DNA from: Actinomycetospora soli
GTDB taxonomy: Bacteria; Actinomycetota; Actinomycetes; Mycobacteriales; Pseudonocardiaceae
Direction of reading: 5' to 3'
Length of the DNA stretch: 64,000 bases
Assembly (NCBI RefSeq): GCF_021026295.1
Contig: NZ_JAJNDA010000001.1
Span: forward strand, 372,001-436,000
Shown: in pieces, positions 7,757-41,360 of the stretch
How the letters are laid out: the number at the start of each line of letters is the position of its first letter
Position numbering within the stretch: position 1 is the first letter of the stretch
Program-made: the position numbers and the translations under genes
The notes under the pieces: model-generated
What the model saw: the letters and a program-made list of their open reading frames with translations, nothing else
The model's database searches: none
Told to the model about the DNA's origin: nothing

Positions 7757-9403
7757 GTGAAGAAGCTGATCAACGACGCCGGTGACGTGGTGCGCGAGGC
7801 GCTCGAGGGCGTGGTGCGCTCGACGCCGGGCGCGGCGCTCGTCGAGGGCACCACCGTGCTCGTCCGGACGGACCTGCCGACCGACCAGGTGGCGGTGCTC
7901 TGCGGCGGGGGCTCGGGGCACGAGCCCGCCCACGCCGGCTACGTCGGCCCGGGGCACCTCGCCGGCGCGGTGTGCGGGGAGGTGTTCGCCTCGCCGTCGG
8001 CCGACGCGGTCCTCTCCGGCATCCGGGCCTTCCGCGACCACCCGGGCGTGCTCCTCGTCGTCATGAACTACACCGGCGACCGGCTCAACTTCGGGCTCGC
8101 GGCGCAGCTCGCCCGCGCCGAGGGCATCGCGTGCGAGATGGTCACGGTGGCCGACGACGTGGCGCTCGACGCCGACGACGACGTCACCGCCGGGCGGCGG
8201 GGGCTGGCGGGCACGGTGCTCGTCACGAAGGCGGCCGGGGCGGCCGCCGCGGACGGCGCGTCGCTGGAGGAGGTCACGCGCACGGCCCGCGAGGCCGCGT
8301 CGGCGGTGGGCACCATGGGCGTCGCGCTCTCGGCGGCCACCGTCCCGACGGCGGGTGAGCCCGGTTTCGTCCTCGACGCCGACCAGATCGAGATCGGCCT
8401 GGGCATCCACGGGGAGCAGGGCGTGCGGCGGGAGTCGCTGCGTCCGGCCGACGAGCTCGTCGACGAGGTGCTGGACACGATCCGCGCCGACCGCGGGTTC
8501 GGCGAGGGCGACCGGGTCGCGGTCCTCGTCAACGGCACCGGCGCGACCCCGCCGATGGAGCTGTCGATCCTGCTGCGCCGGGCGCTCGAGCACCTGGACG
8601 GGCGCGGTGTCACGGTGGAGCGGGCGTGGGCCGGCACGTTCCTGTCCTCGATCGACATGGCCGGCTTCTCGATCGCCGTGCTCGGGCTCGACGACGAGCG
8701 CCTCGCCCGGCTCGACGCGCCCGCCCGGTCCGCCGCCTGGCCCTCGGGGTCGGGCGTGGTGGCCGGCGGGGTGCCCACGGTGCCCGACGCGGCCGGGGAG
8801 GCGACCGCCGCGGGACCGTCCGGCGTGGCGGCGCCGGAGGGGATGCGCGCGACCGTCGAGGCGGTGTGCGCGGCGGTGCGGGACGCCGAGCCGCACCTGA
8901 CCGAGCTCGACACCGCGACCGGTGACGGCGACCTCGGCACGTCGCTGTCGCGCGGGGCGGACGCGATCACCGAGGAGCTCGACTCCTACCGCTGGGACGA
9001 CGCGGTCGCGGTGCTGCAGGGCCTGGCCGCGACGCTGCGCCGGGCGATCGGCGGGACGTCCGGCCCGCTCTACGCGACGGGACTGCTGCACGCCGCGGAG
9101 CACCTCGCCGACGGCGGGTCCTGGGCCACGGCGCTGCAGGCCGGCGCCGACGGCGTCTCCGACCTCGGCGGGGCGAAGGCCGGGGACCGCACGATGCTCG
9201 ACGCGCTGCTGCCGGCGGCGTCGGCGCTCGCCTCGTCGGGGTCGGTGTCCGACGCGCTCGAGGCCGCCCGGGAGGGAGCGGCGTCGACGGAGACGATGGC
9301 GCCGCGCCGCGGGCGGTCGTCCTATCTCGGGGACCGGGTGCAGGGGCACCGGGACGCGGGCGCGGAGGCGGTCACGGTGTGGCTCGCCGCGCTCGCCATG
9401 TGA
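7757..9403 (+). CDS. dhaK: Dihydroxyacetone kinase, fused DhaK-DhaL (ATP-dependent glycerone kinase)
   Basis: 548 residues from a GTG. Residues 1-330 are the DhaK domain: CGGGSGHEPAHAGYVGPG near the start, MNYTGDRLNFG for substrate binding and GIHGEQG, whose His forms the covalent hemiaminal with dihydroxyacetone. After an Ala/Pro-rich linker, residues about 355-548 are DhaL: DTATGDGDLGTSL supplies the Asp residues for Mg-ATP, then GGTSGPLYATG and GDRTMLDALLPA. Fusion of K and L is typical of ATP-using enzymes as opposed to the PTS-dependent type. The product, dihydroxyacetone phosphate, enters glycolysis. Single gene; a palindromic terminator overlaps its stop codon. Confidence 0.92.
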   Translation: MKKLINDAGDVVREALEGVVRSTPGAALVEGTTVLVRTDLPTDQVAVLCGGGSGHEPAHAGYVGPGHLAGAVCGEVFASPSADAVLSGIRAFRDHPGVLLVVMNYTGDRLNFGLAAQLARAEGIACEMVTVADDVALDADDDVTAGRRGLAGTVLVTKAAGAAAADGASLEEVTRTAREAASAVGTMGVALSAATVPTAGEPGFVLDADQIEIGLGIHGEQGVRRESLRPADELVDEVLDTIRADRGFGEGDRVAVLVNGTGATPPMELSILLRRALEHLDGRGVTVERAWAGTFLSSIDMAGFSIAVLGLDDERLARLDAPARSAAWPSGSGVVAGGVPTVPDAAGEATAAGPSGVAAPEGMRATVEAVCAAVRDAEPHLTELDTATGDGDLGTSLSRGADAITEELDSYRWDDAVAVLQGLAATLRRAIGGTSGPLYATGLLHAAEHLADGGSWATALQAGADGVSDLGGAKAGDRTMLDALLPAASALASSGSVSDALEAAREGAASTETMAPRRGRSSYLGDRVQGHRDAGAEAVTVWLAALAM

Positions 9404-9437
9404 GCACGTCCCGTGGCCGGGGCCACGGACTCACATG
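9397..9437. terminator. Bidirectional terminator embedding both stop codons; 34 nt recur at 41327-41360
   Basis: Nested palindrome: CATGTGAG (9397-9404) pairs with CTCACATG (9430-9437), and inside it CCGTGGCC (9411-9418) pairs with GGCCACGG (9421-9428). The outer arms contain the TGA of the dhaK gene and, on the other strand, the TGA of the antiporter, and both proteins end in Ala-Met. A 34-nt stretch of it is repeated exactly, inverted, after the PucR-type gene 32 kb away. Confidence 0.75.
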
Positions 9438-23101: not shown

Positions 23102-24331
23102 ATGCGGGCTGGACGGTTCCGGAGGGCGGTCCTGGCGGGGGCGATGGGGATCGCCTGCGCCGTCACGACGACGGGTGTGGCGGCGGCCGCTGCGCCTGCC
23201 CCCGCGCCGGCGGGCGCGACGGTGGTGGGGACGAAGACCGCCCGCTGCCCGGCGACGGTCGCGACGATCCAGGCGGCCGTGACCGCCGCGACGCCCGGCT
23301 CGACGATCTTCGTGTGCGCGGGGACGTACCCGGAGCGGGTGTCGATCACCAAGCCGGTGCGGCTGCTCGGGGCCCAGTACGGCCGGGACGCGCGGGGCGG
23401 GCGGACGAACGCGGCCGACGAGTCGGTGGTCACCGGGGCGACCGGGGGCTTCGCCGTCGGCACCGTCTCCGGCGTCGTCATCGACGGCTTCACGATCTCC
23501 GGGAGCGGCGCGAACGGCATCGATGCCTTCTCGAAGGGCAACGGCTTCACGATCGTCAACAACGTGATCACGGGCAACGCCAACGGCATGAACGTGAACG
23601 CCACCGGTCCGGCGCCCTCGACGATCGCGCGGAACCGGATCGTCGCGAACAACGCCGTGCCCGACCCGCAGGGCGGCACCGGCGTGCTCATCACCTCGGG
23701 TGCGGCCAACGCGCTGACGATCTCCGACAACCTGTTCGGCGGGCACACCAGTGCAGCCGTGAACTCGATCGGCGATCCGGGCAACCGCTCGAGGGGGCTC
23801 GTCGTCCGCGACAACCGCAGCGTCGACGACGCCACCCTGGTCGTGATCAACAACGCCGACGGTGCGCTCGTCACGCGAAACATCGCGACCAAGTCCCCGA
23901 CCGCCGTCGCGGGGACCGGCATCTTCGTCGTCGGCAACACCGACCGGCTGACGGTCAGCCGCAACGTCCTGACCGGCGGGAAGGGCAACGGGCTCTCGGC
24001 CAACGGCGCCGTGCCGTTCGGGGCGGCGCCGAGCACGAACCTCGTGGTCGACACGAACACGATCAGCGGCCGCACGGGCACCGGCATCCTGATCAACGAG
24101 GGTGCGGGCACCGTCGTCGGGAACGTCGTCGCCGCATCCGGCGCGAACGGTGTCGCCGCGGCCGCGACCGCCACGGGGGTCCGGTTCGAGCGCAACGTGG
24201 CCACGGGCAGCGTCGGGAAGGACTGCGCCGACGCCTCGACGGGCGCCGGAACGCTGGGCACCGCGAACACCTGGGTGCGCAACGTCGGGCGGACCGCCAC
24301 GCCGACCGGGCTGTGCCTTCCAGGCAGGTGA
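23102..24331 (+). CDS. Secreted right-handed parallel beta-helix protein (pectate-lyase-like fold)
   Basis: 409 residues. Start chosen at 23102 because AGGGGG lies 8 nt before it; ATGs at 23084 and 23096 are less well placed. A Sec signal peptide (RFRRAVLAGAMGIACAV) ends near residue 30. The body is a run of beta-helix turns with the repeated pattern of Asn/Gly-rich corners (VIDGFTISGSGANGI, NNVITGNANGMNVN, ARNRIVANN, SDNLFGGHTS, TRNIATKSP, SRNVLTGGKGNGL, TNTISGRTGTGI). Such folds are found in polysaccharide lyases and in NosD-type proteins; no catalytic set can be assigned, so an extracellular glycan-binding or -cleaving role is only a guess. Followed by a long terminator shared with cobN. 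Confidence 0.8.
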   Translation: MRAGRFRRAVLAGAMGIACAVTTTGVAAAAAPAPAPAGATVVGTKTARCPATVATIQAAVTAATPGSTIFVCAGTYPERVSITKPVRLLGAQYGRDARGGRTNAADESVVTGATGGFAVGTVSGVVIDGFTISGSGANGIDAFSKGNGFTIVNNVITGNANGMNVNATGPAPSTIARNRIVANNAVPDPQGGTGVLITSGAANALTISDNLFGGHTSAAVNSIGDPGNRSRGLVVRDNRSVDDATLVVINNADGALVTRNIATKSPTAVAGTGIFVVGNTDRLTVSRNVLTGGKGNGLSANGAVPFGAAPSTNLVVDTNTISGRTGTGILINEGAGTVVGNVVAASGANGVAAAATATGVRFERNVATGSVGKDCADASTGAGTLGTANTWVRNVGRTATPTGLCLPGR

Positions 24332-24372
24332 GCAGAAAAGGTGGCTATAGCGACCTTTTCTGCTCACCTGCC
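24323..24372. terminator. Bidirectional terminator with perfect 20-bp stem
   Basis: GGCAGGTGAGCAGAAAAGGT (24323-24342) is exactly complementary to 24353-24372, with a 10-nt loop that itself contains the palindrome GCTATAGC. It sits between convergent genes; the stem includes the TGA of the beta-helix gene and ends two bases before the cobN stop. The A/T runs inside the stem give a U-tract in either direction. Confidence 0.9.
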
Positions 24373-24373
24373 G

Positions 24374-27300
24374 TCAGGCACCTTCGGCGTCGCCCTCCGC
24401 CTCGAGGAACGCCTCGCGCAGCGACTCCACCATCGCCGGGTCCGGGTTCTCCCAGAGTCCCCGGTCCACGGCCTCGAGGAGCCGCTCGGCCATCCCGTGG
24501 AGCGCCCACGGGTTGGCCTCGCGCAGGAACTCCCGGTTCTCCGGGTCGAGCACGTAGTTCTCGGTCAGCGAGCCGTACATCCAGTCGCTGACGGTGCCCG
24601 CGGTCGCGTCCCAGCCGAACAGGTAGTCCACGGTCGCGGCCATCTCGAAGGCACCCTTGTAGCCGTGCCGGCGCATCGCGGCCATCCAGCGCGGGTTGAC
24701 CACGCGGGAGCGGAACACCCGCGCGGTCTCCTCGATCAGCGAGCGGGTGCGCACCGACTCGGGGCGGGTCGAGTCGCCGACGTAGGCCGCGGGTGCCGCC
24801 CCGGTCAGCGCGCGGACCGTGGCGATCATGCCGCCGTGGTACTGGTAGTAGTCGTCGGAGTCGGCGATGTCGTGCTCGCGGGTGTCGATGTTCTTCGCCG
24901 CCACCGCGATCCGCCGGTAGGCCGCGTTCATCTCCTCGACCGCCGACTCGCCGTGCCGGTCCCGACCGTAGGCGTGCCCGCCCCACGTCGTGTAGATCGC
25001 CGCGAGGTCGGCGTCGCCGCGCCAGTCGCGGGAGTCCATCGCCTGCAGCAGGCCGGCGCCGTAGGCCCCGGGCGGCGAGCCGAAGATGCGGGTCGTCGCC
25101 TGCTGCCAGCTCGAGCCGGTCGCGGCGTCCGCGCGGGCGTGGGCGGCCACGAAGTTGTCCTCGTCGGGCTCGTCGAGCCCGGCGACGAGCTGCACCGCGT
25201 CGTCCATCGTCGCCACGACGTGCGGGAACGCGTCGCGGAAGAACCCGGAGATGCGGAGCACGACGTCGACGCGGGGCCGGCCGAGCTCGGCGGCGTCGAC
25301 CACCTCGAGCCCCGTCACGCGACGGGACGCCTCGTCCCACACCGGCCGCACGCCCATGAGCGCGAGCGCCTCGGCGACGTCGTCACCACTGGTGCGCATG
25401 GCCGCCGTCCCCCACAGCGACAGGCCCACGCTCGTGGGCCACTCGCCGTCGTGGTCGTCGCGGTACCGCTCGAGCAGGGAGTCGGCCAGCATCTGGCCGG
25501 TCTCCCAGGCCAGGCGCGACGGGACCGCGCGCGGGTCGATCGAGTAGAAGTTCCGGCCGGTCGGGAGCACGTTGACCAGCCCGCGCAGCGGCGACCCGGA
25601 CGGCCCCGCCTTGACGTGCCCGCCCGCGAGGGCGTGCAGGACGCCGTCGATCTCCTCGGTGGTCCGGTCCAGCCGCGGGACCACCTCGGTGGCCGCGAAG
25701 CGCAGGATGCGCTCGACCGTCTCGTCCTGGCGGGACAGGACCTCCAGGGTCACGTCCGCGGCCTCGTCGGGAAGCCACCTGCGCTTCTCCATCCCGACGA
25801 CGAGCGAGTGCGCCAGTTCCTCGGCGCGGTCGACGTCGATCCGGCTGGCCGCGCCCGCGGACTCGTCGAGCCCGAGCGCCTCGCGCAGCCCGGGCAGCGC
25901 CTGCGTGCCCGACCACATCTGCCGGGCCCGGAGCACCGCGAGCACCATGTCGACCCGCTCCTGGCCGGCCGGCGCCCGGCCCAGGACGTGCAGGCCGTCG
26001 CGGATCTGCGCGTCCTTGATCTCACAGAGCCAGCCGTCGAGATGCATGATGAAGTCGTCGAAGCGCTCGTCGTCGGGCTGGTCGTTCACCCCGAGGTCGG
26101 AGTCGAGCTTGGCGGCCTGGATGAGCTGCCAGATCTGCCCGCGGATCGCCTCGATCTTGCCCGGGTCCATCGCCTGGATCGACGCGTACTCGTCGAGCAG
26201 CTGCTCGAGGCGCGCGAGGTCGCCGTAGGACTCGGCCCGCGCCATCGGCGGCACGAGGTGGTCGACCAGGGTGGCGTGGGCCCGGCGCTTGGCCTGCGTG
26301 CCCTCGCCCGGGTCGTTGACGAGGAACGGGTAGACCAGCGGGAGGTCGCCGAGGATCGGGTCGGGGGCGCAGCTCGCACTGCTCGCGACCGTCTTGCCGG
26401 GCAGCCACTCCAGGTTGCCGTGCTTGCCGACGTGCACCACCGCGTGCGCCCCGAAGCCGGACTGCAGCCAGCGGTAGGCGGCGAGGTAGTGGTGCGAGGG
26501 CGGCAGGTCGGGGTCGTGGTAGATCGCGATCGGGTTCTCCCCGAACCCGCGCGGCGGCTGCATCATGACGACGACGTGGTCCCGCTCGAGGGCGGCGAGC
26601 ACGATCGCGCCCTGGTCGAGGAACATCGAGCCCGGTGCCTCGCCCCAGTGCTCGGTCACGCCGGCGCGGAAGTCCTCCGGCAGCGTCTCGAACCACGCCG
26701 TGTACTCCGCGGCGTCGATGCGGACCGGGTTGGCCGCCATCTGCTCCTCGGTGAGCCAGTCCTGGTCGTAGCCGCCGGCGTCGATGAGGGCGCGGATGAG
26801 CAGGTCGCCGTCGCGCTCCTCGAGGCCCGGGACGTCGCCGATCCAATAGCCCGCGTCGCGCATGGCATGCAGCAGGGCGACCACCGACGCGGGGGTGTCG
26901 AGCCCGACCGCGTTGCCGATGCGGGCGTGCTTCGTCGGGTAGGCCGACAGCACCAGCGCGACCTTCTTGTCGGCGTTGGTGAGGTGCCGCAACCGGCCGT
27001 GGCTCACCGCGAGGCCCGCCACCCGGGCGGCGCGCTCGGGGTCGGCCACGTAGACGGGCAGACCGTCGGCGTCGGTCTCCTTGAACGAGAACGGCACGGT
27101 GATGATCCGGCCGTCGAACTCCGGGACCGCGACCTGGTTGGCGGCGTCGAGCGGGCTGACGCCGTCGTCGTCGGAGAGCCACTCGTCGCGGGAGCGGGTG
27201 AGGCAGAGCGCCTGCAGGATCGGGACGTCGAGCGCGGCGAGCGCGCCGGTGTCCCACGACTCGTCGTCCTCCCCGGCGGACGCGGCGGCGGGCTTGGACC

Positions 27301-28030
27301 CGCCCGCGGCGAGCACCGTCGTGACCAGCACGTCGGCGGTCTTCAGGACGTCGAGCAGCTCCGCGTCCGGGCTGCGCAGGCTGGAGCAGAACACGGGCTC
27401 CGGGAGGCCGCCCGCCTCGACCACGGCGTGGCAGAGGGCGTCGACGAACGCGGTGTTCCCGGCCATGTGGTGGGCGCGGTAGTAGACGACGGCGATGCGG
27501 GGCTTCTCGCCCTGTGACAGGAAAGCGTCGTTGCTGGCGTCCAGTGGCAGTTTCGCCACATCGTCGGCGGTCCAGCCCGGCAGGCGGCCCCACGTCGGCA
27601 GCTCGGCGGGCGGCGCGAAGCCGTGCCCGGTGAGCAGCACGGTGTCGGAGAGGAACGCGGCGAGCTCGCGCAGGTTGTCCGGGCCGCCCTGGGCGAGGTA
27701 GAGGTGCGCCTGGGTCGCGACCCCGATCGGCACGGTGGAGGACTCCATCAGCTGCGCGTCGGGCGTCTGCTCCCCGCCCAGCACGACGACGGGTCGTGGC
27801 CCCGCGGCCAGTAGGTCGAGCCCGGTCTCCCAGGACTGGCGCGACCCGAGCAGGCGCACGACGACGAGGTCGACGCCCTCGAGCAGGCCGGGCAGGTCGG
27901 CGTCCGGGTCGATCCGCGACGGGTTCGCCCAGCGCCAGGCCAGGGCCCCGTCGGCCGCCCCCTCGCTGCCGGCCCGGGCCGAACGGAGGTCGGTGTCGGA
28001 GGTCGAGAGAAGGAGCAGCACGCGCAACAT
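24374..28030 (-). CDS. cobN: Cobaltochelatase subunit CobN
   Basis: 1,218 residues, the usual size of CobN. It is the large, Mg-chelatase-H-like subunit that holds hydrogenobyrinic acid a,c-diamide while cobalt is inserted with ATP-driven partner subunits (CobS/T or ChlI/D types, not in this window). Family signatures include KPRIAVVYYRAHHMAGN, VLSAYPTKHARIGNAVGLD, VHVGKHGNLEWLPGK and the C-terminal MAAMRRHGYKGAFEMAATVDY. ATG at 28030 chosen because the sequence then starts MLRVLLLLSTSDTDL; an in-frame ATG six codons earlier (28048) is possible. Odd: codons near residue 155-172 (DDVAKLPLDASNDAFLSQ) come from an interspersed repeat. Confidence 0.95.
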   Translation of the reverse strand: MLRVLLLLSTSDTDLRSARAGSEGAADGALAWRWANPSRIDPDADLPGLLEGVDLVVVRLLGSRQSWETGLDLLAAGPRPVVVLGGEQTPDAQLMESSTVPIGVATQAHLYLAQGGPDNLRELAAFLSDTVLLTGHGFAPPAELPTWGRLPGWTADDVAKLPLDASNDAFLSQGEKPRIAVVYYRAHHMAGNTAFVDALCHAVVEAGGLPEPVFCSSLRSPDAELLDVLKTADVLVTTVLAAGGSKPAAASAGEDDESWDTGALAALDVPILQALCLTRSRDEWLSDDDGVSPLDAANQVAVPEFDGRIITVPFSFKETDADGLPVYVADPERAARVAGLAVSHGRLRHLTNADKKVALVLSAYPTKHARIGNAVGLDTPASVVALLHAMRDAGYWIGDVPGLEERDGDLLIRALIDAGGYDQDWLTEEQMAANPVRIDAAEYTAWFETLPEDFRAGVTEHWGEAPGSMFLDQGAIVLAALERDHVVVMMQPPRGFGENPIAIYHDPDLPPSHHYLAAYRWLQSGFGAHAVVHVGKHGNLEWLPGKTVASSASCAPDPILGDLPLVYPFLVNDPGEGTQAKRRAHATLVDHLVPPMARAESYGDLARLEQLLDEYASIQAMDPGKIEAIRGQIWQLIQAAKLDSDLGVNDQPDDERFDDFIMHLDGWLCEIKDAQIRDGLHVLGRAPAGQERVDMVLAVLRARQMWSGTQALPGLREALGLDESAGAASRIDVDRAEELAHSLVVGMEKRRWLPDEAADVTLEVLSRQDETVERILRFAATEVVPRLDRTTEEIDGVLHALAGGHVKAGPSGSPLRGLVNVLPTGRNFYSIDPRAVPSRLAWETGQMLADSLLERYRDDHDGEWPTSVGLSLWGTAAMRTSGDDVAEALALMGVRPVWDEASRRVTGLEVVDAAELGRPRVDVVLRISGFFRDAFPHVVATMDDAVQLVAGLDEPDEDNFVAAHARADAATGSSWQQATTRIFGSPPGAYGAGLLQAMDSRDWRGDADLAAIYTTWGGHAYGRDRHGESAVEEMNAAYRRIAVAAKNIDTREHDIADSDDYYQYHGGMIATVRALTGAAPAAYVGDSTRPESVRTRSLIEETARVFRSRVVNPRWMAAMRRHGYKGAFEMAATVDYLFGWDATAGTVSDWMYGSLTENYVLDPENREFLREANPWALHGMAERLLEAVDRGLWENPDPAMVESLREAFLEAEGDAEGA
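27511..27562 (-). repeat. Interspersed ~50-bp repeat, copy A (inside cobN)
   Basis: Read on the minus strand it begins GATGTGGCGAAACTGCC and ends CCTGTCACAGG. It aligns with copies at 28488-28535, 30716-30765 and 31661-31710. Its centre contains CTGG-CGT-CCAG and its ends are TGTG/CACA, so it can fold on itself. It adds codons for DVAKLPLDASNDAFL in cobN. Confidence 0.75.
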
Positions 28031-28043
28031 CTCATCATCTGCG

Positions 28044-28080
28044 CACACCGTGTGTCATCGGCCGTACTGTGTGGCCGATG
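28044..28080. promoter_or_regulatory. Divergent cobN/cobG control region with two palindromes
   Basis: Only 47 bp separate the two starts. CACAC-C-GTGTG (28044-28054) and CATCGGCC...GGCCGATG (28056-28063 and 28073-28080, 9-nt spacer) are both perfect inverted repeats. The second overlaps a -10 TACTGT (28065-28070) and the cobG ATG, which follows that -10 by 7 nt (leaderless). Confidence 0.55.
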
Positions 28081-29259
28081 CCCCGCACCCGATCACGGCC
28101 CGACGCCTGCCCCGGCGCCTGGCGCCGGCACGACGCCGCCGACGGCGCGCTGGCCCGGTTCCGACCGGTCGGCGGGGCCACCACCGCCACCGAGCTCCGC
28201 CTGCTGGCGGGCGCGGCCGCGTCCGGCGGGTCGCCGATCGAACTGACCTCCCGAGGATCGTGGCAGGTGCGCGGGCTCGCCGGAACCACCGCCGACGACC
28301 TCGCCGACGCGCTCCGCGACGACCGCCCCGACGCCCTCGTGGACGCCCGCGGCCGCGACGTGCCCTGCTCCATCATCGCCTCCCCCCGCTCGGCGGCGGT
28401 CGACCCGGTCGCGAGGGCGGTCGCGGACGGGCTCCGGGGGCGCGTGGACGTGCCCGGGCGGCTGCTGGTGGCGATCGAGGATCGACGGTGTGGCTCTCCT
28501 GGCGTCGAGTGCCGGCAGCGACGCACTGCTGTCACCGGAGGTGACGTCAGCGGCCAGGGCGCCGACGTCACGGTGGTGCTCGACGGGCCCGCGGCGCTGC
28601 TGCTCGACGGGGTCGACACCGGGCTCCGGCACGACGACCCCGCGGCCCTCGCCCTGGCGGCCGTCGACGCGTTCACCACGCACCGCGGCTCGGCCTGGCG
28701 GGTGCGCGAGCTCGACGACGCGGCCCGCGGCGCGATGCTGGAGGCGCTCGCGGACCGCACCGCACCCGGCGTCGGGACCGTGCGGCCGGGACCGGCGGAC
28801 CCGACGCGCCTGGGGCGGGACGGGACCGCGCTGGAGGTCCTCCCCCGGCTCGGCGAGGTCGACCTGCCGACGGTGACGGCGCTGCTCGAGCTGCTGGACC
28901 GCGGCGCCACGCTGCGCGCGACCCCGTGGCGCACGCTCGTGCTGCGCGACGCGCCCGCGGACGCGGAGGCCCGGCTCGACGGGCTCGTGGAGATCGACCC
29001 GGCGTCGCGGTGGCGCGGGGTCTCGGCGTGCGTCGGGGCGCCGCGGTGTCGGAAGTCGTTGACCGACGTGCGGGGCGACCTGGCCGCGGCCGTCGCGTCC
29101 GGGCACGTCGGCGGGCAGGTCCGGCAGCACTGGGTGGGCTGCGGGCGGGCGTGCGGGACCCCGGGTGGCAGGGTCGCCGTGGTGGAAGCGGTCGGGCAGA
29201 CGGACGAGACGAGCGGCACGTACCGGACGGTCGTGCGCTCGGGGAGGGTGAACGGATGA
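28078..29259 (+). CDS. cobG: Precorrin-3B synthase CobG
   Basis: 393 residues. CobG belongs to the nitrite/sulfite-reductase fold and oxidises precorrin-3A to precorrin-3B using oxygen, the marker step of the aerobic B12 pathway. Seen: two ferredoxin-like half-repeats (PIELTSRGSWQVRGL early, TALEVLPRLGEVDLPTV later) and the Fe-S ligands ACVGAPRCRKS and VGCGRACGTP at about 320-370. The ATG at 28078 follows a -10 box by 7 nt. An interspersed repeat supplies residues about 138-152 (RCGSPGVECRQRRTA), a region not expected to be conserved. ATGA overlap with cobH. Confidence 0.88.
   Translation: MPRTRSRPDACPGAWRRHDAADGALARFRPVGGATTATELRLLAGAAASGGSPIELTSRGSWQVRGLAGTTADDLADALRDDRPDALVDARGRDVPCSIIASPRSAAVDPVARAVADGLRGRVDVPGRLLVAIEDRRCGSPGVECRQRRTAVTGGDVSGQGADVTVVLDGPAALLLDGVDTGLRHDDPAALALAAVDAFTTHRGSAWRVRELDDAARGAMLEALADRTAPGVGTVRPGPADPTRLGRDGTALEVLPRLGEVDLPTVTALLELLDRGATLRATPWRTLVLRDAPADAEARLDGLVEIDPASRWRGVSACVGAPRCRKSLTDVRGDLAAAVASGHVGGQVRQHWVGCGRACGTPGGRVAVVEAVGQTDETSGTYRTVVRSGRVNG
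28488..28535 (+). repeat. Interspersed ~50-bp repeat, copy B (inside cobG)
   Basis: Begins GTGTGGCTCTCCTGGCGTCG and ends ACTGCTGTCACC; about 85% identical by eye to copy D in the unrelated carboxylase gene. Read here in a different frame from copy D, yet cobG stays open. Confidence 0.75.
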
Positions 29260-29975
29260 TCTCGGGCGACGTGGCCCCGGCGACGGGCGTGATCCAGACC
29301 GGGCAGGCGGAGCGACGGGAGATCCACACGCCGGACTCGCGGGCGGTGCCGGCCCACGTGGTCGACGGCGACGAGATCTACCGCCGCTCGTTCGCGATCA
29401 TCCGGTCCGAGGCCGAGCTCGGGCACCTGCCGGCGGACGCCCACGACCTCGTCGTGCGCATGATCCACTCCTGCGGCATGACCGACCTGGGCGCGGACAC
29501 CGCGGTCACCCCCGGGGCGGTCGCGGCCGCGCACGCCGCCCTGCGCGCCGGCGCCCCCGTGCTCTGCGACGCGATGATGGTCGCCTCCGGGATCACGCGG
29601 CGGTTCCTGCCCGCCGGCAACGACGTGGTCTGCACGCTCAACGACCCGGACGTCCCGGCCAAGGCCGCGCTGCTGGGCACGACGCGCTCCGCGGCCGCCC
29701 TCGACCTGTGGCTGCCGCTGCTCGAGGGCGCGGTGGTGGCGATCGGCAACGCCCCGACCGCGCTCTTCCGCCTGCTCGAGATGATCGAGGCGGGCGCGCC
29801 GCGACCCGCCGTCGTGCTGGGGCTACCCGTGGGCTTCGTCGGCGCGATGGAGTCGAAGGCCGCCCTGGCCGCGCACCCGTCGGAGCTGGAGCACGTCGTC
29901 GTGCACGGGCGTCGCGGCGGGTCGGCCATGACGGTCGGGGCCGTGAACGCGCTCGCGCTCGGGGCGACGGCGTGA
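29256..29975 (+). CDS. cobH: Precorrin-8X methylmutase CobH
   Basis: 239 residues. It moves the C-11 methyl group to C-12, converting precorrin-8X to hydrogenobyrinic acid. Family motifs: YRRSFAIIRSEAEL, VVRMIHSCGMTDL with the catalytic His, APVLCDAMMVASGI, and VVLGLPVGFVGAMESK. Start ATG overlaps the cobG stop (ATGA) and the stop overlaps the cobIJ GTG (GTGA), so cobG-cobH-cobIJ is one translationally coupled operon. Length is normal for the family (around 210-240). No odd features. Confidence 0.95.
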   Translation: MISGDVAPATGVIQTGQAERREIHTPDSRAVPAHVVDGDEIYRRSFAIIRSEAELGHLPADAHDLVVRMIHSCGMTDLGADTAVTPGAVAAAHAALRAGAPVLCDAMMVASGITRRFLPAGNDVVCTLNDPDVPAKAALLGTTRSAAALDLWLPLLEGAVVAIGNAPTALFRLLEMIEAGAPRPAVVLGLPVGFVGAMESKAALAAHPSELEHVVVHGRRGGSAMTVGAVNALALGATA

Positions 29976-31504
29976 CCGGCCGACTGTTCGGGGTCGGCGT
30001 CGGTCCGGGCGACCCCGGGCTGATGACGGTGAAGGCGGTGGACCTGATCCGCGCCGCCGACGTCGTCGCCTACCACTGCGCGCGGCACGGCCGGTCGAAC
30101 GCGCGGCGGATCGCGGCGCAGTACCTCGGCGCGCAGATCGAGGAGGCGCTGACCTACCCGGTCACCACCGAGGACACCGACGACTACCAGGGCCGCATCG
30201 ACGCCTTCTACACCGAGGCGGCCGCCCGGCTGGCCGCGCACCTCGACGCCGGCCGCGACGTCGTGGTGCTCTCCGAGGGCGACCCGTTCTTCTACGGCTC
30301 CTACATGCACCTGCACAAGCGGCTCGCGCACCGGTATCCCGCGGAGGTGGTCCCGGGCGTGACCAGCGTGTCCGCCGCGGCCGCCACGTTGGGCACGCCG
30401 CTGGTGGAGCGCGACGAGGTGCTCACCGTGCTCCCCGGGACGCTGCCGCCCGACGAGCTGGCCCGGCGCCTGGCCGACACCGACGCCGCCGCGGTGATGA
30501 AGCTGGGCCGCACGTTCACGGGGGTCCGGACGGCGCTGCGGACCGCCGGCCGCGCCGACGAGGCCCGCTACGTGGAGCGCGCCAGCCAGGTCGAGGAGCG
30601 CCAGGGGCTGCTCGAGGACGTCGACCCGGCGTCGGTGCCGTACTTCAGCGTCGGGATCGTGCCGTCGCGCGTGCACGTGGCGACGACGGAGCAGGCGCGG
30701 GCGGACGGGGCACGGGGTGCCAGCAATGCGTCACTGCTTGCACCCAGTGACAGGGACGCCACACCGTCGACGGGCCTCGTGACCGTCGTCGGACTCGGCC
30801 CCGGCAGCCGCGACCGCCTCACGCCCGAGGCGTTCAGCGCCCTCGCCGGGGCGGACGACGTCGTCGGCTACGCCACCTACACCGCGCGCGTGCCGCACAA
30901 CCCGCGCCAGCGCGTGCACGCCTCGGACAACAAGGTCGAGTCCGAGCGTGCCGCTTACGCTCTGGATCTGGCGCGTTCCGGACGACGGGTCGCGGTGGTC
31001 TCCTCGGGTGACCCCGGGGTCTTCGCGATGGCGTCGGCGGTCGTGGAGGTCGCGGCGGAGGACTACCCCGACGTCGAGGTGCGGGTGCTCCCCGGGGTGA
31101 CCGCCGCCCACGCCGTGGCCGCCCGGATCGGGGCGCCGCTGGGCCACGACTACGCGACGATCTCGCTGTCGGACCGCCTGAAGTCGTGGGAGGTCGTCGA
31201 GCGCCGGCTCGCCGCGGTGGCCGACGCCGACATGGTGATCGCGCTGTACAACCCGGCGTCCCGGTCCCGCACCTGGCAGGTCGAGGCGGCCAAGGAGATC
31301 CTGCTCAAGTACCGCGACGAGTCGACCCCGGTGATCATCGGGCGCGACGTCGACGGGCCCGAGGAGTCGGTGCGCGTCGTCGAGCTCGGCGCCCTGGAGC
31401 CGTCGGAGATCGACATGCGGACGCTGCTGATCGTCGGTTCGTCGCAGACCCGGTGGGTGGCCGACCGGGTGTTCAGCCCCCGCAGGTGGCCTTCGGCCCC
31501 GTGA
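29972..31504 (+). CDS. cobIJ: Fused CobI-CobJ (precorrin-2 C20- and precorrin-3B C17-methyltransferase)
   Basis: 510 residues. Residues 1-240 are CobI (GRLFGVGVGPGDPGLMTVKA, SEGDPFFYGSYMHL, VVPGVTSVSAAAA), which methylates C-20 of precorrin-2. Residues about 268-510 are CobJ (VTVVGLGPGSRDRLTPEA, SSGDPGVFAMAS, VLPGVTAAHAVAARIGAPL), which methylates C-17 with ring contraction to give precorrin-4. The fusion is known in mycobacteria and relatives. The linker (about 248-265, GASNASLLAPSDRDAT) is encoded by an interspersed repeat. CobG acts between the two activities, fitting one operon. The stop codon lies in the stem of a hairpin. Confidence 0.95.
   Translation: MTGRLFGVGVGPGDPGLMTVKAVDLIRAADVVAYHCARHGRSNARRIAAQYLGAQIEEALTYPVTTEDTDDYQGRIDAFYTEAAARLAAHLDAGRDVVVLSEGDPFFYGSYMHLHKRLAHRYPAEVVPGVTSVSAAAATLGTPLVERDEVLTVLPGTLPPDELARRLADTDAAAVMKLGRTFTGVRTALRTAGRADEARYVERASQVEERQGLLEDVDPASVPYFSVGIVPSRVHVATTEQARADGARGASNASLLAPSDRDATPSTGLVTVVGLGPGSRDRLTPEAFSALAGADDVVGYATYTARVPHNPRQRVHASDNKVESERAAYALDLARSGRRVAVVSSGDPGVFAMASAVVEVAAEDYPDVEVRVLPGVTAAHAVAARIGAPLGHDYATISLSDRLKSWEVVERRLAAVADADMVIALYNPASRSRTWQVEAAKEILLKYRDESTPVIIGRDVDGPEESVRVVELGALEPSEIDMRTLLIVGSSQTRWVADRVFSPRRWPSAP
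30716..30765 (-). repeat. Interspersed ~50-bp repeat, copy C (inside cobIJ linker)
   Basis: Opposite orientation to copies B and D: its reverse complement begins TGTGGCGTCCCTGTCACTGG and ends GACGCATTGCTGGCACC. It forms the coding sequence of the CobI-CobJ interdomain linker. Confidence 0.75.
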
Positions 31505-31540
31505 GTAGTTGTGACGGGTATGACCGCCACAACTACTCAC
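31501..31540. terminator. Hairpin at the cobIJ stop, 13-bp perfect stem
   Basis: GTGAGTAGTTGTG (31501-31513) pairs with CACAACTACTCAC (31528-31540); loop of 14 nt. The left arm contains the cobIJ TGA. No T-run follows, so it may act as attenuator or mRNA stabiliser as well as terminator. An ATG of the next gene's open frame (31520) lies in the loop. Confidence 0.65.
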
Positions 31541-31558
31541 GAGGCAGAGCCACCAGCC

Positions 31559-34500
31559 GTGCGCCGTGTCCTGATCGCCAACCGTGGCGAGATCGCCGTC
31601 CGCATCGCCGACGCCGTCGCGGCGCTCGGGCTCGAGGCGGTACCGGTCCACGCCGCCGACGATGTGGCGTTCCTGGCGTCCAGTGCCGGCAGTGACGCAT
31701 TGCCGGCACCGCAGGTGCTCCCCGGCACCGGACCGGCCGCCTATCTCGACGTCGAGGCGGTCGTCGCCGCGGCGACGGAGGCCGGCGCGGACGCCGTGCA
31801 CCCGGGCTACGGGTTCCTGTCGGAGAACCCGGCCCTCGCACGGGCGTGCGAGGAGGCGGGGATTGTCTTCGTCGGCCCCTCCCCCGACGCCCTCGCGCTG
31901 TTCGGCGACAAGGCCCTCGCCCGGTCGCGTGCCGCGGAGCTCGGCGTGCCGGTCCTCGACGACGACGGGACCACCCCCGTCGTCGTGAAGGCCGTGGCCG
32001 GCGGCGGGGGCCGGGGCATGCGGGTCGTCCGAGACCGGACGGAGCTCGACGAGGCCCGCCGGGCCGCCGCGGCCGAGGCGCGGGCCGCGTTCGGCGACGA
32101 CCGTGTCTTCGTCGAGCGCTACCTGGAGGGCGCCCGGCACGTCGAGGTGCAGCTGCTCGGCGACGGCCACGACGTCGCGGTCCTCGCCGACCGCGATTGC
32201 AGCCTGCAGCGGCGGCACCAGAAGATGGTCGAGATCGCTCCGGCGCCGGACCTTCCCGACGAGGTCCGTACCCGGCTCCACGCGTACGCCCACGCCCTCG
32301 GCGCCTCCGCGGACCTGCGCGGGCTCGCGACCGTCGAGTTCCTCGTCGCCGGCACCGCGATCGCGTTCCTGGAGGTCAACCCGCGGCTGCAGGTCGAGCA
32401 CACGGTCACCGAGGAGGTCCTCGGCGTCGACCTGGTCGCGGCCGGGCTCCGGGTCGCCGCCGGCGCGCGGCTCGCGGACCTCGCGCTCGCCACCGAGCCG
32501 CGCGGGGTCGCCGTCCAGGCCCGCGTGAACGCCGAGACGCTCGGCGCCGACGCCTCGGTCCGCGCCGCGGCGGGGACGCTGAGCCGGTTCACCCCGCCGT
32601 CGGGCCGGGGCGTGCGGGTGGACACCCACGGACGGGCCGGGCTCACGGTCGATCCGCGGTACGACTCGCTGCTGGCCAAGGTCGTCGTCCACGACGCCGA
32701 TCTCCCCCGCGCCCTCGCCCACCTCGACCGGGCGCTGGCGGGCTTCGACCTCGACGGCGTCCCGACGACGATCCCGGTGCTCCGCGCCCTGCTCGCCCGG
32801 CCCGAGGTGCTCGCGCCCGACACGGGGCTGGTCGAGCGGCTGCTCCCCGAGATCGTGAGGGGAGGATCCGAGCGCTCTTTCGGCACGAGGGTTCCCCTGC
32901 CGACGGGAGACGGCGACCCACTGACAGCCGTCACCGCCGGCACGGTGGTCGCCGTCGAGGCCGCACCCGGCAGCACGGTCGCCGCGGGCGCGGCCGTCGT
33001 CGTGCTCGAGGCGATGAAGATGGAGCACGTGGTCGCGGCGCCGGAGGGCGGCACGGTCGTGGAGATCGCGGTGGCGATCGGCGACGTCGTGGCCGAGGGC
33101 GACGTGCTCGCCGTGCTCGAGCCGGGCGGGGCGGCGGCCGGGGACGGCACGGCGGAGGCCGTCGACCCCGACCACGTCCGCCCCGACCTCGCCGAGGTCC
33201 TCGACCGGCGCCGCCTCACGCGCGACGAGGCCCGCCCGGCCGCCGTGACCCGTCGTCGGGAAGCAGGCCGGAGGACGGCCCGGGAGAACGTGGCCGACCT
33301 GTGCGACGAGGGCAGCTTCGTCGAGTACGGCGCGTTCGCCGTGGCCGCCCAACGGAAGCGCCGGTCGCTGGAGGACCTGCGCGAACGCACCCCGGCGGAC
33401 GGCATCGTCACGGGGATCGGTGCGGTCGACGGGCGACGCGTCGTGGTCCTCGCCTACGACTACACCGTGCTCGCCGGCACCCAGGGCGTCCTCTCGCACG
33501 CGAAGACCGACCGGGCCCTGCAGCTCGCGCTCGACCACGACCTGCCCGTCGTCCTGTTCGCCGAGGGCGGCGGCGGACGGCCGGGCGAGACCGACACGAT
33601 CGCGGTCGCCCAGCTCGACGTGCCGACGTTCGCGCTGTTCGCGCAGCTGTGCGGGCGGGTCCCGACGGTGGCCGTGGTCGCCGGCTACTGCTTCGCCGGC
33701 AACGCCGCGCTGGCCGGCTGCGCCGACCTCGTCGTCGCCGTCGAGGGCGCCAACCTCGGCATGGGCGGCCCGGCGATGATCGCGGGCGGCGGCCTCGGGG
33801 AGGTCGACCCGCACGACGTCGGGCCGACGTCGGTACAGGTGCCGAACGGAGTCGTCGACGTGCTGGTCGGCGACGAGGCCGAGGCGGTCGCGGTGGCGCG
33901 GCGCTACCTCGCGCTGGACCGGGTCGTCCCCGGCCCCCGGCCCGATCCGCGGGTGCTGCGCCACGTGGTGCCGGAGAACCGGCTGCGGGTCTACGACGTG
34001 CGCGCGGCGGTCGACGGGCTGGTCGACGTCGGGTCGCTGCTGGAGCTGCGGCCGCGGTACGGGGTCGGGATCGTGACGGCGTTCGCACGGCTGGGCGGCC
34101 GGCCGATCGGGGTGATGGCCAACGACCCGCGCCGGCTCGGCGGCGCCGTCGACGCCGAGGCGGCCGACAAGGCGGCCCGGTTCCTGCAGCTCTGCGACTC
34201 GCGCGGGCTGCCGGTGGTGTCGCTGTGCGACACCCCGGGCTTCATGGTCGGTCCCGACGCCGAGGCCACCGCGACGGTCCGCCGCTTCTCCCGGATGTTC
34301 GTCACGGGCGCGAACCTGCGGGTGCCGGTGGTGTGCGTCGTGCTGCGCAAGGCCTACGGGCTCGGCGCGATGGCGATGGCGGGCGGCTCGATGCGGGTGC
34401 CGGTGGCCACGGTGGCCTGGCCGAGCGGGGAGTTCGGCGGGATGGGGCTCGAGGGCGCGGTGCGGCTCGGGTACGCCAAGGAGCTCGCGGCCCTCGGGCC

Positions 34501-34693
34501 GGACGAGCGCCAGGCGCGGTACGACGAGCTCGTCGCGGCGCTCTACGAGCAGGGCAAGGCGCTCTCGGCCGCCGAGGTGGTGGAGATCGACGACGTGATC
34601 GACCCGGCCGACACCGCGGCGGTCGTGCTCGCGGCCCTCGACGCCGCCGACGGACCGCTGCCCCCGCGACGCCCGGTCGTCGACACCCGGTGA
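31559..34693 (+). CDS. Single-chain acyl-CoA carboxylase (biotin carboxylase + BCCP + carboxyltransferase)
   Basis: 1,044 residues from GTG 31559 (an ATG at 31520 in the same frame would add 13). Biotin carboxylase at 1-440 (VRRVLIANRGEIAVRIADA, GGGGRGMRVV, FLEVNPRLQVEHTVTEE); biotinyl domain with EAMKMEHVV at about 485-493; carboxyltransferase at about 560-1,030 (GIVTGIGAVDGRRVVV, DTPGFMVGPDAE, MAMAGGSMRVPVATVAWP). Together they would carboxylate an acyl-CoA without partner subunits, like the long-chain acyl-CoA carboxylase of Mycobacterium avium; substrate length cannot be read. Residues about 35-50 (DVAFLASSAGSDALPAP) come from an interspersed repeat. I prefer 31559 because 31520 is inside a hairpin loop. 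Confidence 0.88.
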   Translation: MRRVLIANRGEIAVRIADAVAALGLEAVPVHAADDVAFLASSAGSDALPAPQVLPGTGPAAYLDVEAVVAAATEAGADAVHPGYGFLSENPALARACEEAGIVFVGPSPDALALFGDKALARSRAAELGVPVLDDDGTTPVVVKAVAGGGGRGMRVVRDRTELDEARRAAAAEARAAFGDDRVFVERYLEGARHVEVQLLGDGHDVAVLADRDCSLQRRHQKMVEIAPAPDLPDEVRTRLHAYAHALGASADLRGLATVEFLVAGTAIAFLEVNPRLQVEHTVTEEVLGVDLVAAGLRVAAGARLADLALATEPRGVAVQARVNAETLGADASVRAAAGTLSRFTPPSGRGVRVDTHGRAGLTVDPRYDSLLAKVVVHDADLPRALAHLDRALAGFDLDGVPTTIPVLRALLARPEVLAPDTGLVERLLPEIVRGGSERSFGTRVPLPTGDGDPLTAVTAGTVVAVEAAPGSTVAAGAAVVVLEAMKMEHVVAAPEGGTVVEIAVAIGDVVAEGDVLAVLEPGGAAAGDGTAEAVDPDHVRPDLAEVLDRRRLTRDEARPAAVTRRREAGRRTARENVADLCDEGSFVEYGAFAVAAQRKRRSLEDLRERTPADGIVTGIGAVDGRRVVVLAYDYTVLAGTQGVLSHAKTDRALQLALDHDLPVVLFAEGGGGRPGETDTIAVAQLDVPTFALFAQLCGRVPTVAVVAGYCFAGNAALAGCADLVVAVEGANLGMGGPAMIAGGGLGEVDPHDVGPTSVQVPNGVVDVLVGDEAEAVAVARRYLALDRVVPGPRPDPRVLRHVVPENRLRVYDVRAAVDGLVDVGSLLELRPRYGVGIVTAFARLGGRPIGVMANDPRRLGGAVDAEAADKAARFLQLCDSRGLPVVSLCDTPGFMVGPDAEATATVRRFSRMFVTGANLRVPVVCVVLRKAYGLGAMAMAGGSMRVPVATVAWPSGEFGGMGLEGAVRLGYAKELAALGPDERQARYDELVAALYEQGKALSAAEVVEIDDVIDPADTAAVVLAALDAADGPLPPRRPVVDTR
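31661..31710 (+). repeat. Interspersed ~50-bp repeat, copy D (inside the carboxylase gene)
   Basis: Begins GATGTGGCGTTCCTGGCGTC and ends GACGCATTGCCGGCACC. Encodes FLASSAGSDALPAP in a loop of the biotin carboxylase N-domain where homologues have a short, different sequence. Confidence 0.75.
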
Positions 34694-34791
34694 GTCGGCC
34701 CGCGGGCACCCGCGAGGCGATCCTCGCGGGTGCGGAGGGCGTGCTCGTGCGCCGCGGCCGTGGACGCCGCACCCGGTGCCGGACCACGTGA
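34690..34791 (+). pseudogene. Truncated tetR-like remnant (33 codons)
   Basis: A GTG overlapping the carboxylase stop (GTGA) opens a frame that starts like a TetR regulator, PAGTREAILAGAEGVLVRRG (compare the usual TRErILdAAlelFaerG), then runs into Arg-rich sequence and stops after 33 codons. The helix-turn-helix and ligand domain are gone. It looks like the 5' stub of a regulator once co-transcribed with the carboxylase. Confidence 0.5.
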
Positions 34792-34832
34792 GGCTTGAGT
34801 GTGCCGCCACGTCATGGCGTCTCCTCACGCCC

Positions 34833-35498
34833 ATGTCACCCGAGACGCAACCGCTCCCCGAGGTCCGCCCGCTGACCGTGCTCGACCGCCTCGGCGGCTG
34901 GTGGGGCATCGTCGGCACCGGCGGGCCGCAGGTCGTGTTCGCCATGCTCACGAACGTCACGTCCCTGCCGGTCACGGCCGGCGTCGCGCTCGCGGTCGCG
35001 GTGGTCTTCGGGGTGATCCGGAAGCTCCGCGGCGAGGAGACCGCGGCCGCGCTCGGCGGGGTCCTCGGCGTCGGGATCGCCGCCGGGATCGCGCTGTGGA
35101 CCGGGTCGGCGAGCGACTTCTTCCTGGTCGGCGTCGTCACGTCCGCCGCGTTCTTCGTCCCGACGGCGGGTTCCTTCGTCCTCGGCCGCCCCGTCACCGG
35201 CGTGCTCTGGAACGCGCTGCACGGGGGCGGGCACCCGTGGCGGGAGGACCGGCCGTCGCGCCGCGCGCACGACCTCGCGACGGCCGCCGCCGCGTCGATG
35301 TTCGGCGCCCGGGCGCTCATCAGCGGTCTGCTGTGGTGGACGGAGTCGGTCGCGGGGCTCGCGCTGGCCCGGATCGTCCTCGGTGTCCCCTTGACGGCGC
35401 TGGTCGCCCTCGTGGTCTTCTGGGCGTTCCGCCGGACCACCCACCGTCTCGTCACCCCGGCGCGGGTGGCCGCCCGCAGCACCGGGAGCAGCCGATGA
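34833..35498 (+). CDS. DUF3159 membrane protein
   Basis: 221 residues, ATG at 34833. Hydrophobic segments in several pairs (PQVVFAMLTNVTSLPVTAGV, AAALGGVLGVGIAAGIALWT, DFFLVGVVTSAAFFVPTAGS, IVLGVPLTALVALVVFWAF) and the pattern LGRPVTGVLW match DUF3159, a six-helix or so actinobacterial membrane family of unknown function. It is coupled to the following MerR gene by an ATGA overlap, so the MerR protein may control it. The frame is open upstream to 34776, but those residues do not look like a membrane-protein N-terminus. Confidence 0.8.
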   Translation: MSPETQPLPEVRPLTVLDRLGGWWGIVGTGGPQVVFAMLTNVTSLPVTAGVALAVAVVFGVIRKLRGEETAAALGGVLGVGIAAGIALWTGSASDFFLVGVVTSAAFFVPTAGSFVLGRPVTGVLWNALHGGGHPWREDRPSRRAHDLATAAAASMFGARALISGLLWWTESVAGLALARIVLGVPLTALVALVVFWAFRRTTHRLVTPARVAARSTGSSR

Positions 35499-41317: not shown

Positions 41318-41360
41318 GTGAGCGCTGTCCGTGGCCCCGGCCACGGGACGTGCTCACATG
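41318..41360 (-). terminator. Terminator of the PucR-type gene; inverted copy of the 9.4-kb terminator
   Basis: GTGAGC (41318-41323) pairs with GCTCAC (41352-41357), with CCGTGGCC and GGCCACGG inside. Bases 41327-41360 are the exact reverse complement of 9398-9431 region sequence (34 nt). The arm includes the TGA of the PucR-type gene. Confidence 0.7.

Follow-up and report, generated by a model that had tools for sequence, protein, structure and literature searches.

Species-specific palindromic repeats at shared positions in Actinomycetospora genomes

How does a repeat of about 50 bp come to lie, in frame, in four unrelated genes within 4.2 kb? This question is raised by the cobalamin (cob) region of an Actinomycetospora genome (G000; 6.52 Mb, 69 contigs), where a first-pass annotation of contig C11:372001-436000 (64 kb, the whole stretch of DNA analyzed, hereafter the window) had described four interspersed repeat copies, named here A to D. 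CobH from the window shares 94% identity with its Actinomycetospora chiangmaiensis counterpart, and 15 of the 80 loci retained in our scan belong to Actinomycetospora. Comparison of 18 genomes of the genus (G000-G017, G000 being our own) showed that the hairpin families of this element are species-specific, and that many positions and orientations of its copies are common within one species group. We consider it rather probable that these repeats form a family resembling repetitive extragenic palindromes (REPs) and Rickettsia palindromic elements (RPEs), found in this analysis in Actinomycetospora only, whose inherited positions are overwritten species by species, with the set evolving in concert.

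Repeat families and shared positions

An nhmmer profile of the element, started from a single consensus-like copy and refined by iteration over the own-genome loci matched by copy D, gave four matches in the window, between 27514 and 31710, and no fifth match at E <= 0.1. This confirmed all four proposed copies inside named genes:

27514..27565, minus strand: copy A, type 2, in frame in cobN, encoding ..ADDVAKLPLDASNDAFLSQGEK.. (nhmmer profile)
28484..28535, plus strand: copy B, type 1, in frame in cobG, encoding RRCGSPGVECRQRRTAVTG (profile, alignments)
30716..30768, minus strand: copy C, type 1, antisense to and in frame in cobIJ, in the inter-domain linker, encoding GASNASLLAPSDRDATPST
31658..31710, plus strand: copy D, type 1, in frame in a biotin-dependent carboxylase gene, encoding DDVAFLASSAGSDALPAPQV
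24374..28048, minus strand: cobN-like open reading frame (ORF) carrying copy A (ORF list; name from the first-pass annotation and protein alignments)
28078..29259, plus strand: cobG-like ORF carrying copy B (ORF list, alignments)
29972..31504, plus strand: cobIJ fusion ORF carrying copy C (ORF list, alignments, AlphaFold2 model)
31520..34693, plus strand: biotin-dependent carboxylase ORF carrying copy D and a second palindrome family (ORF list, alignments)

The window therefore holds two subfamilies, type 2 (copy A) and type 1 (copies B, C, and D). The copies had been called near-identical, which holds for B, C, and D (B and D differ at 9/57 positions, C and D at 14, B and C at 17) and not for A, which differs from D at about 17/53 positions (hand count on the alignment) and belongs to the second subfamily.

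With copy D as the query, our own genome gave 49 matches at E <= 10 and 47 at E <= 0.01, itself included, the best other copies being 91-93% identical. A covariance model, R1, built from 42 distinct copies, gave at least 150 matches, the weakest of those listed having E 4e-5; the 150 listed matches correspond to 148 places, because two palindromes score on both strands. The type-1 15-mer core GCAGTGACGCATTGC occurs exactly 38 times and the type-2 core CAGCAACGACGCTTTCCTG 101 times (126 with up to one mismatch), and the reversed patterns do not occur at all. Loops among the 150 listed matches are of type 1 (GTGACGC or GCGACGC) in 69 and of type 2 (AACGACGC) in 75. The genome thus contains copies far beyond chance, and the R1 matches are spread over it rather than clustered around cobalamin genes as had been proposed.

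Each hairpin family is confined to part of the genus. Besides G000, the type-2 core is present in G013 (158 copies), G005 (69), G002 (19), and G017 (1), and the type-1 core in G013 (1), G005 (7), G002 (34), and G017 (8), with 0 copies of either in the 13 others. Family H3 (GTCAGCATGGCCGCACTGCTGAC, up to one mismatch) has 72 copies in G017 and none in the 17 other genus genomes, while H4 (up to two mismatches) has 47 copies in G006 and a single two-mismatch match each in G003 and G013. The GCGAACAGCGCGTTCGCTGC family (up to one mismatch) occurs in 9/18 genomes, all outside the window's group, with one match only in G003 and none in G008. By the window's group we refer to G000, G002, G005, G006, G009, G010, G013, and G017, as set by the identity of a GIY-YIG gene (62% or more) together with the element family, with no tree behind the grouping. 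The type-2 core (up to one mismatch), the sole family sought outside the genus, was found in 0/115 genomes from 44 further genera of the same bacterial family and in all 5 Actinomycetospora genomes of that family-wide draw.

To compare positions, copies of the relatives were matched to own-genome DNA around R1 copies, which makes up 8.1% of the genome without the window and about 9% with it. The G017, G006, and G004 sets were picked without regard to our own genome: the G017 set consists of 20 loci from the pattern search, and for G006 and G004, 20 of the 47 and 20 of the 53 copies were taken, following the order of the list and passing over some. Fourteen of the 20 H3 copies of G017 (11/17 separate loci) map on both sides onto own-genome loci where G000 also has a copy in the slot, and a further locus, L287, maps on one side. 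Likewise, 8/20 H4 stretches of G006 map two-sided with an own copy in the slot. At 9%, the binomial P is 5e-11 for 14/20, 2e-8 for 11/17, and 2e-4 for 8/20. In contrast, G004, which belongs to the other group and has a family of 53 copies, has 0/20 positions in common with our genome. Among further sets, the count was 1/1 for G013 and 1/8 for the first copies of eight other-group genomes. All these sharing counts are lower bounds, because the own R1 copies number at least 150. Orientation agrees in 12/12 judgeable G017 slots and in 8/8 G006 slots (hand tally; one G017 slot was judged by pair order, and L292 and L296 were not judgeable). Alignment of eight slots revealed a different hairpin between conserved flanks, and 2/15 G017 elements compared (L293 and L299) are mosaics of an own-type left arm and an H3 hairpin.

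At some loci (L244, L252, L287, L250, and L235), the homology to our own genome breaks off or jumps close to the element, around 1500, on one of its sides, as if the elements sat at rearrangement breakpoints.

In protein alignments, the insert positions are filled or empty slots and not universal residues. The element profile matches the cob loci of L059, L060, L061, and L063, and 65 cob loci of other genera have no profile match below E 0.3. The CobG slot is filled in the window (type 1), in L060 (type 2), in L059 and L061 (an unrelated palindrome), and in L063 (another insert, a hybrid by reading), and it is empty in L062, L064, L065, L067-L073, and the three aligned outgroups (L074, L083, and L092). 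CobN carries an insert in 10/13 usable Actinomycetospora loci (hand count; L069 was short, L065 could not be used, and no L066 sequence was found), with copy A's family in L059, L060, and L063, another insert in L062, and none in L061 and L070; the rows for CobG of L066 (a fragment) and CobN of L065 (an unrelated reading) were left unused. An acyl-CoA biotin carboxylase encoded elsewhere in the genome has an insert between LLD and FFFLEMN, at a place where the aligned solved chain 3u9s_A has a gap of 17 residues. An ortholog of this protein at >=78% identity is present in 11/18 genus genomes, and the insert in 10/11 aligned genomes, our own included, G008 having none. This distribution among orthologs agrees with the first-pass view of the repeats as elements inserted into genes. 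The unrelated palindrome in the CobG slot of L059 and L061 belongs to the family that also occurs in the window:

32856..32898, plus strand: second, unrelated dispersed palindrome (GTGAGGGGAGGATCCGAGCGCTC...GGGTTCCCCT; also GTGAGGGGA...TCCCCTCAC), lying in frame in the carboxylase that also carries copy D

This second family has 6 unique matches at E <= 1e-4 (one partial) in the part of our own genome that was compared.

Anatomy of the unit and copies inside genes

The unit is ~53-62 bp long and is built of two arms of ~27 nt each, a left arm (GACGATGTGGCGTTCCTGGCGTCCAG) and then a hairpin arm of the form TGCnnGCA-loop-TGCnnGCAC, with GGAGGTG after the hairpin arm in part of the copies. It is arranged as single units, as near-perfect palindromes of two hairpin arms, and as outward-facing inverted pairs. 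The stem has 9-nt arms and a 9-nt loop or, when extended, 12 pairs and 3 nt. In type-1 copies, the middle trinucleotides of both stem arms are drawn from largely the same small set, and the stem-arm variants combine almost at random: the middle trinucleotides match in 17/62 copies vs 12.1 expected by shuffling (P 0.05). We read this as trinucleotides being shuffled between copies rather than selected for pairing. The RNAalifold consensus contains 3 pairs only, none with compensatory change on both sides, and a 12-pair hairpin drawn by hand has 82.6% of its cells paired vs a mean of 79.9 in shuffles, 0/500 of which reached the observed value; both sides have changed in 4 of its pairs vs 3.3 expected. 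A selected RNA structure, one of the options initially put forward, is therefore unsupported: the hairpin shape is present, and its covariation is small, little above that of shuffles. A search of window positions 24000-35000 against Rfam returned 5 matches up to E 1, all far below gathering (over copy D, 29.5 vs 94 bits).

Copies were called intragenic by a codon-usage test on both flanks. By score, 25 of the 150 R1 matches listed are intragenic, and four more, copy D included, were called by eye from 10 near-zero scores, giving 29/150 (about 19%), a figure that includes one palindrome counted on both strands and several pairs within one gene. By the same score rule, 224/297 control positions (900 bp either side) are coding, which indicates that genes are strongly, although not wholly, avoided. 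Relative to the gene, 16 of the 29 matches are antisense and 13 sense. Two frames hold 21/25 of the score-called copies (14 in antisense phase 2 and 7 in sense phase 1; P 8e-6 vs two of five open frames), or 20/24 with the palindrome taken once and 25/29 with the copies called by eye, all four of which fall in these frames. The favored frames encode Ser/Ala/Asp/Asn-rich peptides, such as DDVAFLASSAGSDALPAPQV of copy D. It should be noted that the earlier remark that every ORF stays open is partly trivial, since five of the six consensus frames are without a stop (by reading); copy B, in CobG, occupies the sole consensus frame with one and has CGA at the consensus TGA position.

An AlphaFold2 model of CobIJ (44 sequences, mean predicted local distance difference test [pLDDT] score 83) has only two segments of at least 3 residues under pLDDT 50, residues 245-265 and 507-510. 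The former corresponds to the element peptide, and the model is folded on both sides of the insert.

The 121 of 150 listed matches that are not genic lie in tandem (56), convergent (27), divergent (7), and unclear (31) contexts. Among the intergenic copies with callable neighbors (n = 73), the hairpin side is towards a 3' end in 53, at a median of 8 bp, and in tandem contexts the hairpin is towards the 3' end of the upstream gene in 37 cases vs 13 (P 9e-4).

Several other features were noticed. In L226, opposite copies at 2201-2262 and 3472-3533, 1.2 kb apart, lie within one ORF of 978 amino acids; G017 has both slots filled, and G006 has one of them filled and an unmapped opposite copy 1.3 kb further on. 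A terminator-like palindrome (GTGAGTAGTTGTG..CACAACTACTCAC) is located at window positions 31502-31541, between cobIJ and the carboxylase gene, and by eye similar GTGAG/CTCAC-ended, short-loop palindromes lie 3' of the GIY-YIG gene in several other-group genomes. The repeat finder also reported a 34-nt perfect inverted repeat (CATGTGAGCACGTCCCGTGGCCGGGGCCACGGAC) at window positions 9397-9430 and 41327-41360, 32 kb apart.

Outward-facing pairs and competing explanations

The four window copies form two outward-facing pairs (A/B and C/D), of a kind found elsewhere in the genome. Among neighboring R1 copies with a gap of 0.1-2.5 kb, 12/15 are in (-,+) order, with hairpins outward (P 1.2e-5 vs a quarter), a test chosen after the pattern was noticed, and the sole (+,-) arrangement among those 15 is the gap separating the two pairs of the window. 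The same order is found in 7/10 neighbors at gaps <100 bp and in 21/96 at gaps >5 kb. At start-to-start distances of 130-2600 bp, it is found in 5/8 pairs in G017, 3/3 in G005, and 2/3 in G002, the G002 and G005 lists combining two cores; some pairs are orthologous and hence non-independent. The hairpins facing 3' ends explain part of this pairing and not the intragenic pairs A/B and C/D. In G000, 6 of 12 pairs enclose one whole ORF (coding score), among them the gene of a GIY-YIG nuclease-like protein:

L264-L268 (G000, G013, G002, G005, and G017), about 1340-2150 as read in the direction of the gene: GIY-YIG-like gene with outward-facing elements on both sides, their family differing by species

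A common cargo gene within the pairs was considered and rejected, as the enclosed ORFs differ and the cob-region DNA is orthologous to that of the relatives.

How, then, do different families come to occupy the same positions? Since many positions are common though families differ, overwriting in place accounts better than fresh jumping for a large part of the pattern, though less is shared in other sets. Under the concerted-overwriting reading, element positions would be inherited within the species group, and the sequence at each position would be replaced by the prevailing variant of the species, through either ectopic gene conversion or element-targeted re-insertion. The dispersed set would thereby evolve in concert, and copies landing in genes would presumably survive only in flexible loops and tolerable frames. 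We infer inherited positions and concerted overwriting from the shared slots, the old state of a slot being judged from relatives without a tree. The original idea of a mobile or self-propagating element keeps some ground in the positions that are unshared, and yields to overwriting at the many that are common despite differing families.

A number of observations weigh against concerted overwriting. Some movement must occur, because many copies are at lineage-specific places, and two-sided loci without an own copy at the place were also seen, 1 in G017 and 2 in G006. Sharing is weaker in other sets (2/8 for H1 copies of G002, 2/7 for those of G005, and 1/7 for those of G017), and confidence is tempered by this and by the 14 shared copies representing 11 loci. 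The H3 loci were picked by their exact core, so that their uniformity arises by selection, and the contrast lies in the 0 H3 copies of G000 together with the shared positions. In addition, net gains at filled slots vary, with +16 residues in CobN, CobG, and the biotin carboxylase, +12 in CobIJ, and +4 in the carboxylase with copy D (hand counts), showing that insertion is not a clean event. In the other group, the slots in CobN and the biotin carboxylase carry other inserts, which fits re-used permissive sites. Finally, no conversion tract was directly observed, and overwriting is what we infer from comparing sequences.

Classical selfish insertion, in which an element like a miniature inverted-repeat transposable element (MITE) or an RPE jumps repeatedly, survives in permissive linkers and intergenic gaps, and reaches the same sites independently as unrelated families, is to our judgment rather unlikely, if the most serious of the alternatives. 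It would account for the occupation of one slot by different families in CobG, CobN, and the biotin carboxylase, for the empty slots (CobG in L062, CobN in L061 and L070, biotin carboxylase in G008), and for the many unshared positions, but it is at odds with the 14/20 and 8/20 shared positions, with matching orientation, found within the group vs 0/20 for G004, and with the mosaic elements. The domain Y1_Tnp (PF01797) of the REP-associated tyrosine transposase (RAYT) is absent from 18/18 genus genomes, a search limited to this transposase family that was positive in 5/14 control genomes, and this also speaks against repeated jumping. A selected function of the hairpins at 3' ends, in transcription end or mRNA stability, with the form conserved at gene ends and the sequence drifting, is in line with the 53/73 hairpins facing a 3' end, the 37 vs 13 in tandem contexts, and the distribution of the 121 non-genic copies. 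We regard it as improbable, taking into account that drift cannot account for one species having 72 copies of the same core, that pairing of the middle stem is not clearly maintained, and that a strong terminator would be harmful at the roughly 29 intragenic matches, whether antisense or sense.

The GIY-YIG nuclease-like protein might instead be the cognate enzyme, cutting or nicking the elements and so driving their copying in a RAYT-like role. In the window's group, all 8 genomes have an element just downstream of its gene, and in 5 of them the gene is flanked on both sides; the flanking copies of G017 and G006 were also recovered by exact pattern. The flanking family switches by species (H1/H2 in G000, G002, G005, and G013, H3 in G017, H4 in G006), and the one exact H1 core of G013 sits at this gene; similarly, orthologous RAYT genes are described as flanked by different REP classes in PMC3686654. 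However, all 18 genus genomes have the gene (G004 and G017 also have a second, weaker match), and inspection by eye of the 260 bases on either side of it in the other group showed no copy of that group's family. Five further G000 genes are enclosed by such pairs, at least one of which (C22:32655/33107) is also filled in G017 (L293 and L294), and the Pfam match, PF20815, is barely above the cut-off (E 9e-5, 22.9 vs 22.4 bits). Because the gene occurs in all 18 genomes and other genes are also enclosed by pairs, we keep it as a lead only, with little expectation that it is the enzyme, and for the same two reasons we rejected it as an autonomous parent element. A related speculation, to which we would give only slightly more credit, is a drive without RAYT, in which a nuclease, with the GIY-YIG-like protein as candidate, would break non-current elements and repair would copy in the current version, so that all positions, including loops of core enzymes, would be rewritten.

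If concerted overwriting is correct, many unlinked short repeats, some of them in enzymes of core metabolism, would be rewritten together at inherited positions, and protein loops would be rewritten by a process acting at the DNA level.

Relation to known repeat systems

The element is REP/RPE-like, and its unusual feature is the species-specific sequence at shared positions. Among open-access papers naming Actinomycetospora, the titles and abstract starts listed mention no such repeats, full texts and subscription papers being outside this scope.

RPEs (Ogata et al., 2000, 2002, as cited in PMC10969869) are elements of ~150 bp in ten families, with 44 integrations in R. conorii, of which almost half fall in ORFs (PMC10969869). 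The parallel with RPEs drawn in the first-pass annotation is supported: in both cases several palindromic families lie in frame in unrelated metabolic genes, and the present element, a dispersed and imperfect palindrome, lies in loops and linkers of proteins that are not related to each other, at sites that are occupied in some relatives and empty in others. Judged by codon usage, 29/150 listed matches appear to lie in open coding frames of unrelated genes. Here, however, the unit is ~53-62 bp, about a fifth of the copies are genic, and orthologous slots contain different species-specific families. The likeness is one of form, no RPE sequence having been compared, and we make no claim of common descent. 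Enterobacterial RU-1 to RU-3 are likewise small mobile sequences within genes, with reading frames (PMC2759123); they are larger (103-168 bp) and belong to another lineage, and the start of the abstract of PMC2759123 mentions no in-place family switching. As for MITEs, which have terminal inverted repeats, a target-site duplication, and a parental transposase, no common clean boundary was seen for our element; net gains at five slots are 48, 48, 36, 12, and 48 nt for a unit of 53-62 nt, and our transposase search covered Y1 only.

REPs and their doublets (REPINs) are associated with the RAYT transposase and, in the case of GTAG REPs, with a GTAG tag (PMC2817692, PMC3116915, PMC3686654), and REPs have been described beside 3' ends (PMC3733652). 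Our element resembles them in being a short palindrome of high copy number, with inverted doublets and species-specific families, and in being mainly intergenic (121/150 listed matches not genic). It differs in its longer unit, in the GTAG tag, which is absent from the consensus of 42 distinct copies, and in the lack of Y1_Tnp in 18/18 genomes. In the published REP "orthoswitch" model, old copies stay and decay while new ones are added (PMC3686654), whereas here old copies appear to be overwritten in place; concerted in-place rewriting, if it occurs, is absent from that model as set out in the available part of the paper.

A further comparison may be drawn with CGTC-tagged REPs (including RPE-4 and RPE-6), which have no dedicated transposase, in which inverted dimers predominate, and which include intragenic units (PMC3733652). 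They carry an unpaired CGTC tag beside the hairpin and are defined by a stem of 8-9 bp and a loop of 4-5 nt, and the five phyla named for them in the available part of that paper exclude Actinobacteria (PMC3733652). In our own genome, only 33 of the 150 listed copies have CGTC in the expected place, no more than 24 nt ahead of the loop, but it precedes the hairpin in 14/15 G017 elements compared (hand count). Our element has a loop of about 9 nt and not 4-5, and a two-part architecture. How CGTC-type REPs persist without a dedicated transposase is a question posed in PMC3733652. If concerted overwriting is correct, Actinomycetospora, as a genus with several closely related species, would be a place to study how REP-like repeats are maintained in the absence of a recognizable transposase.

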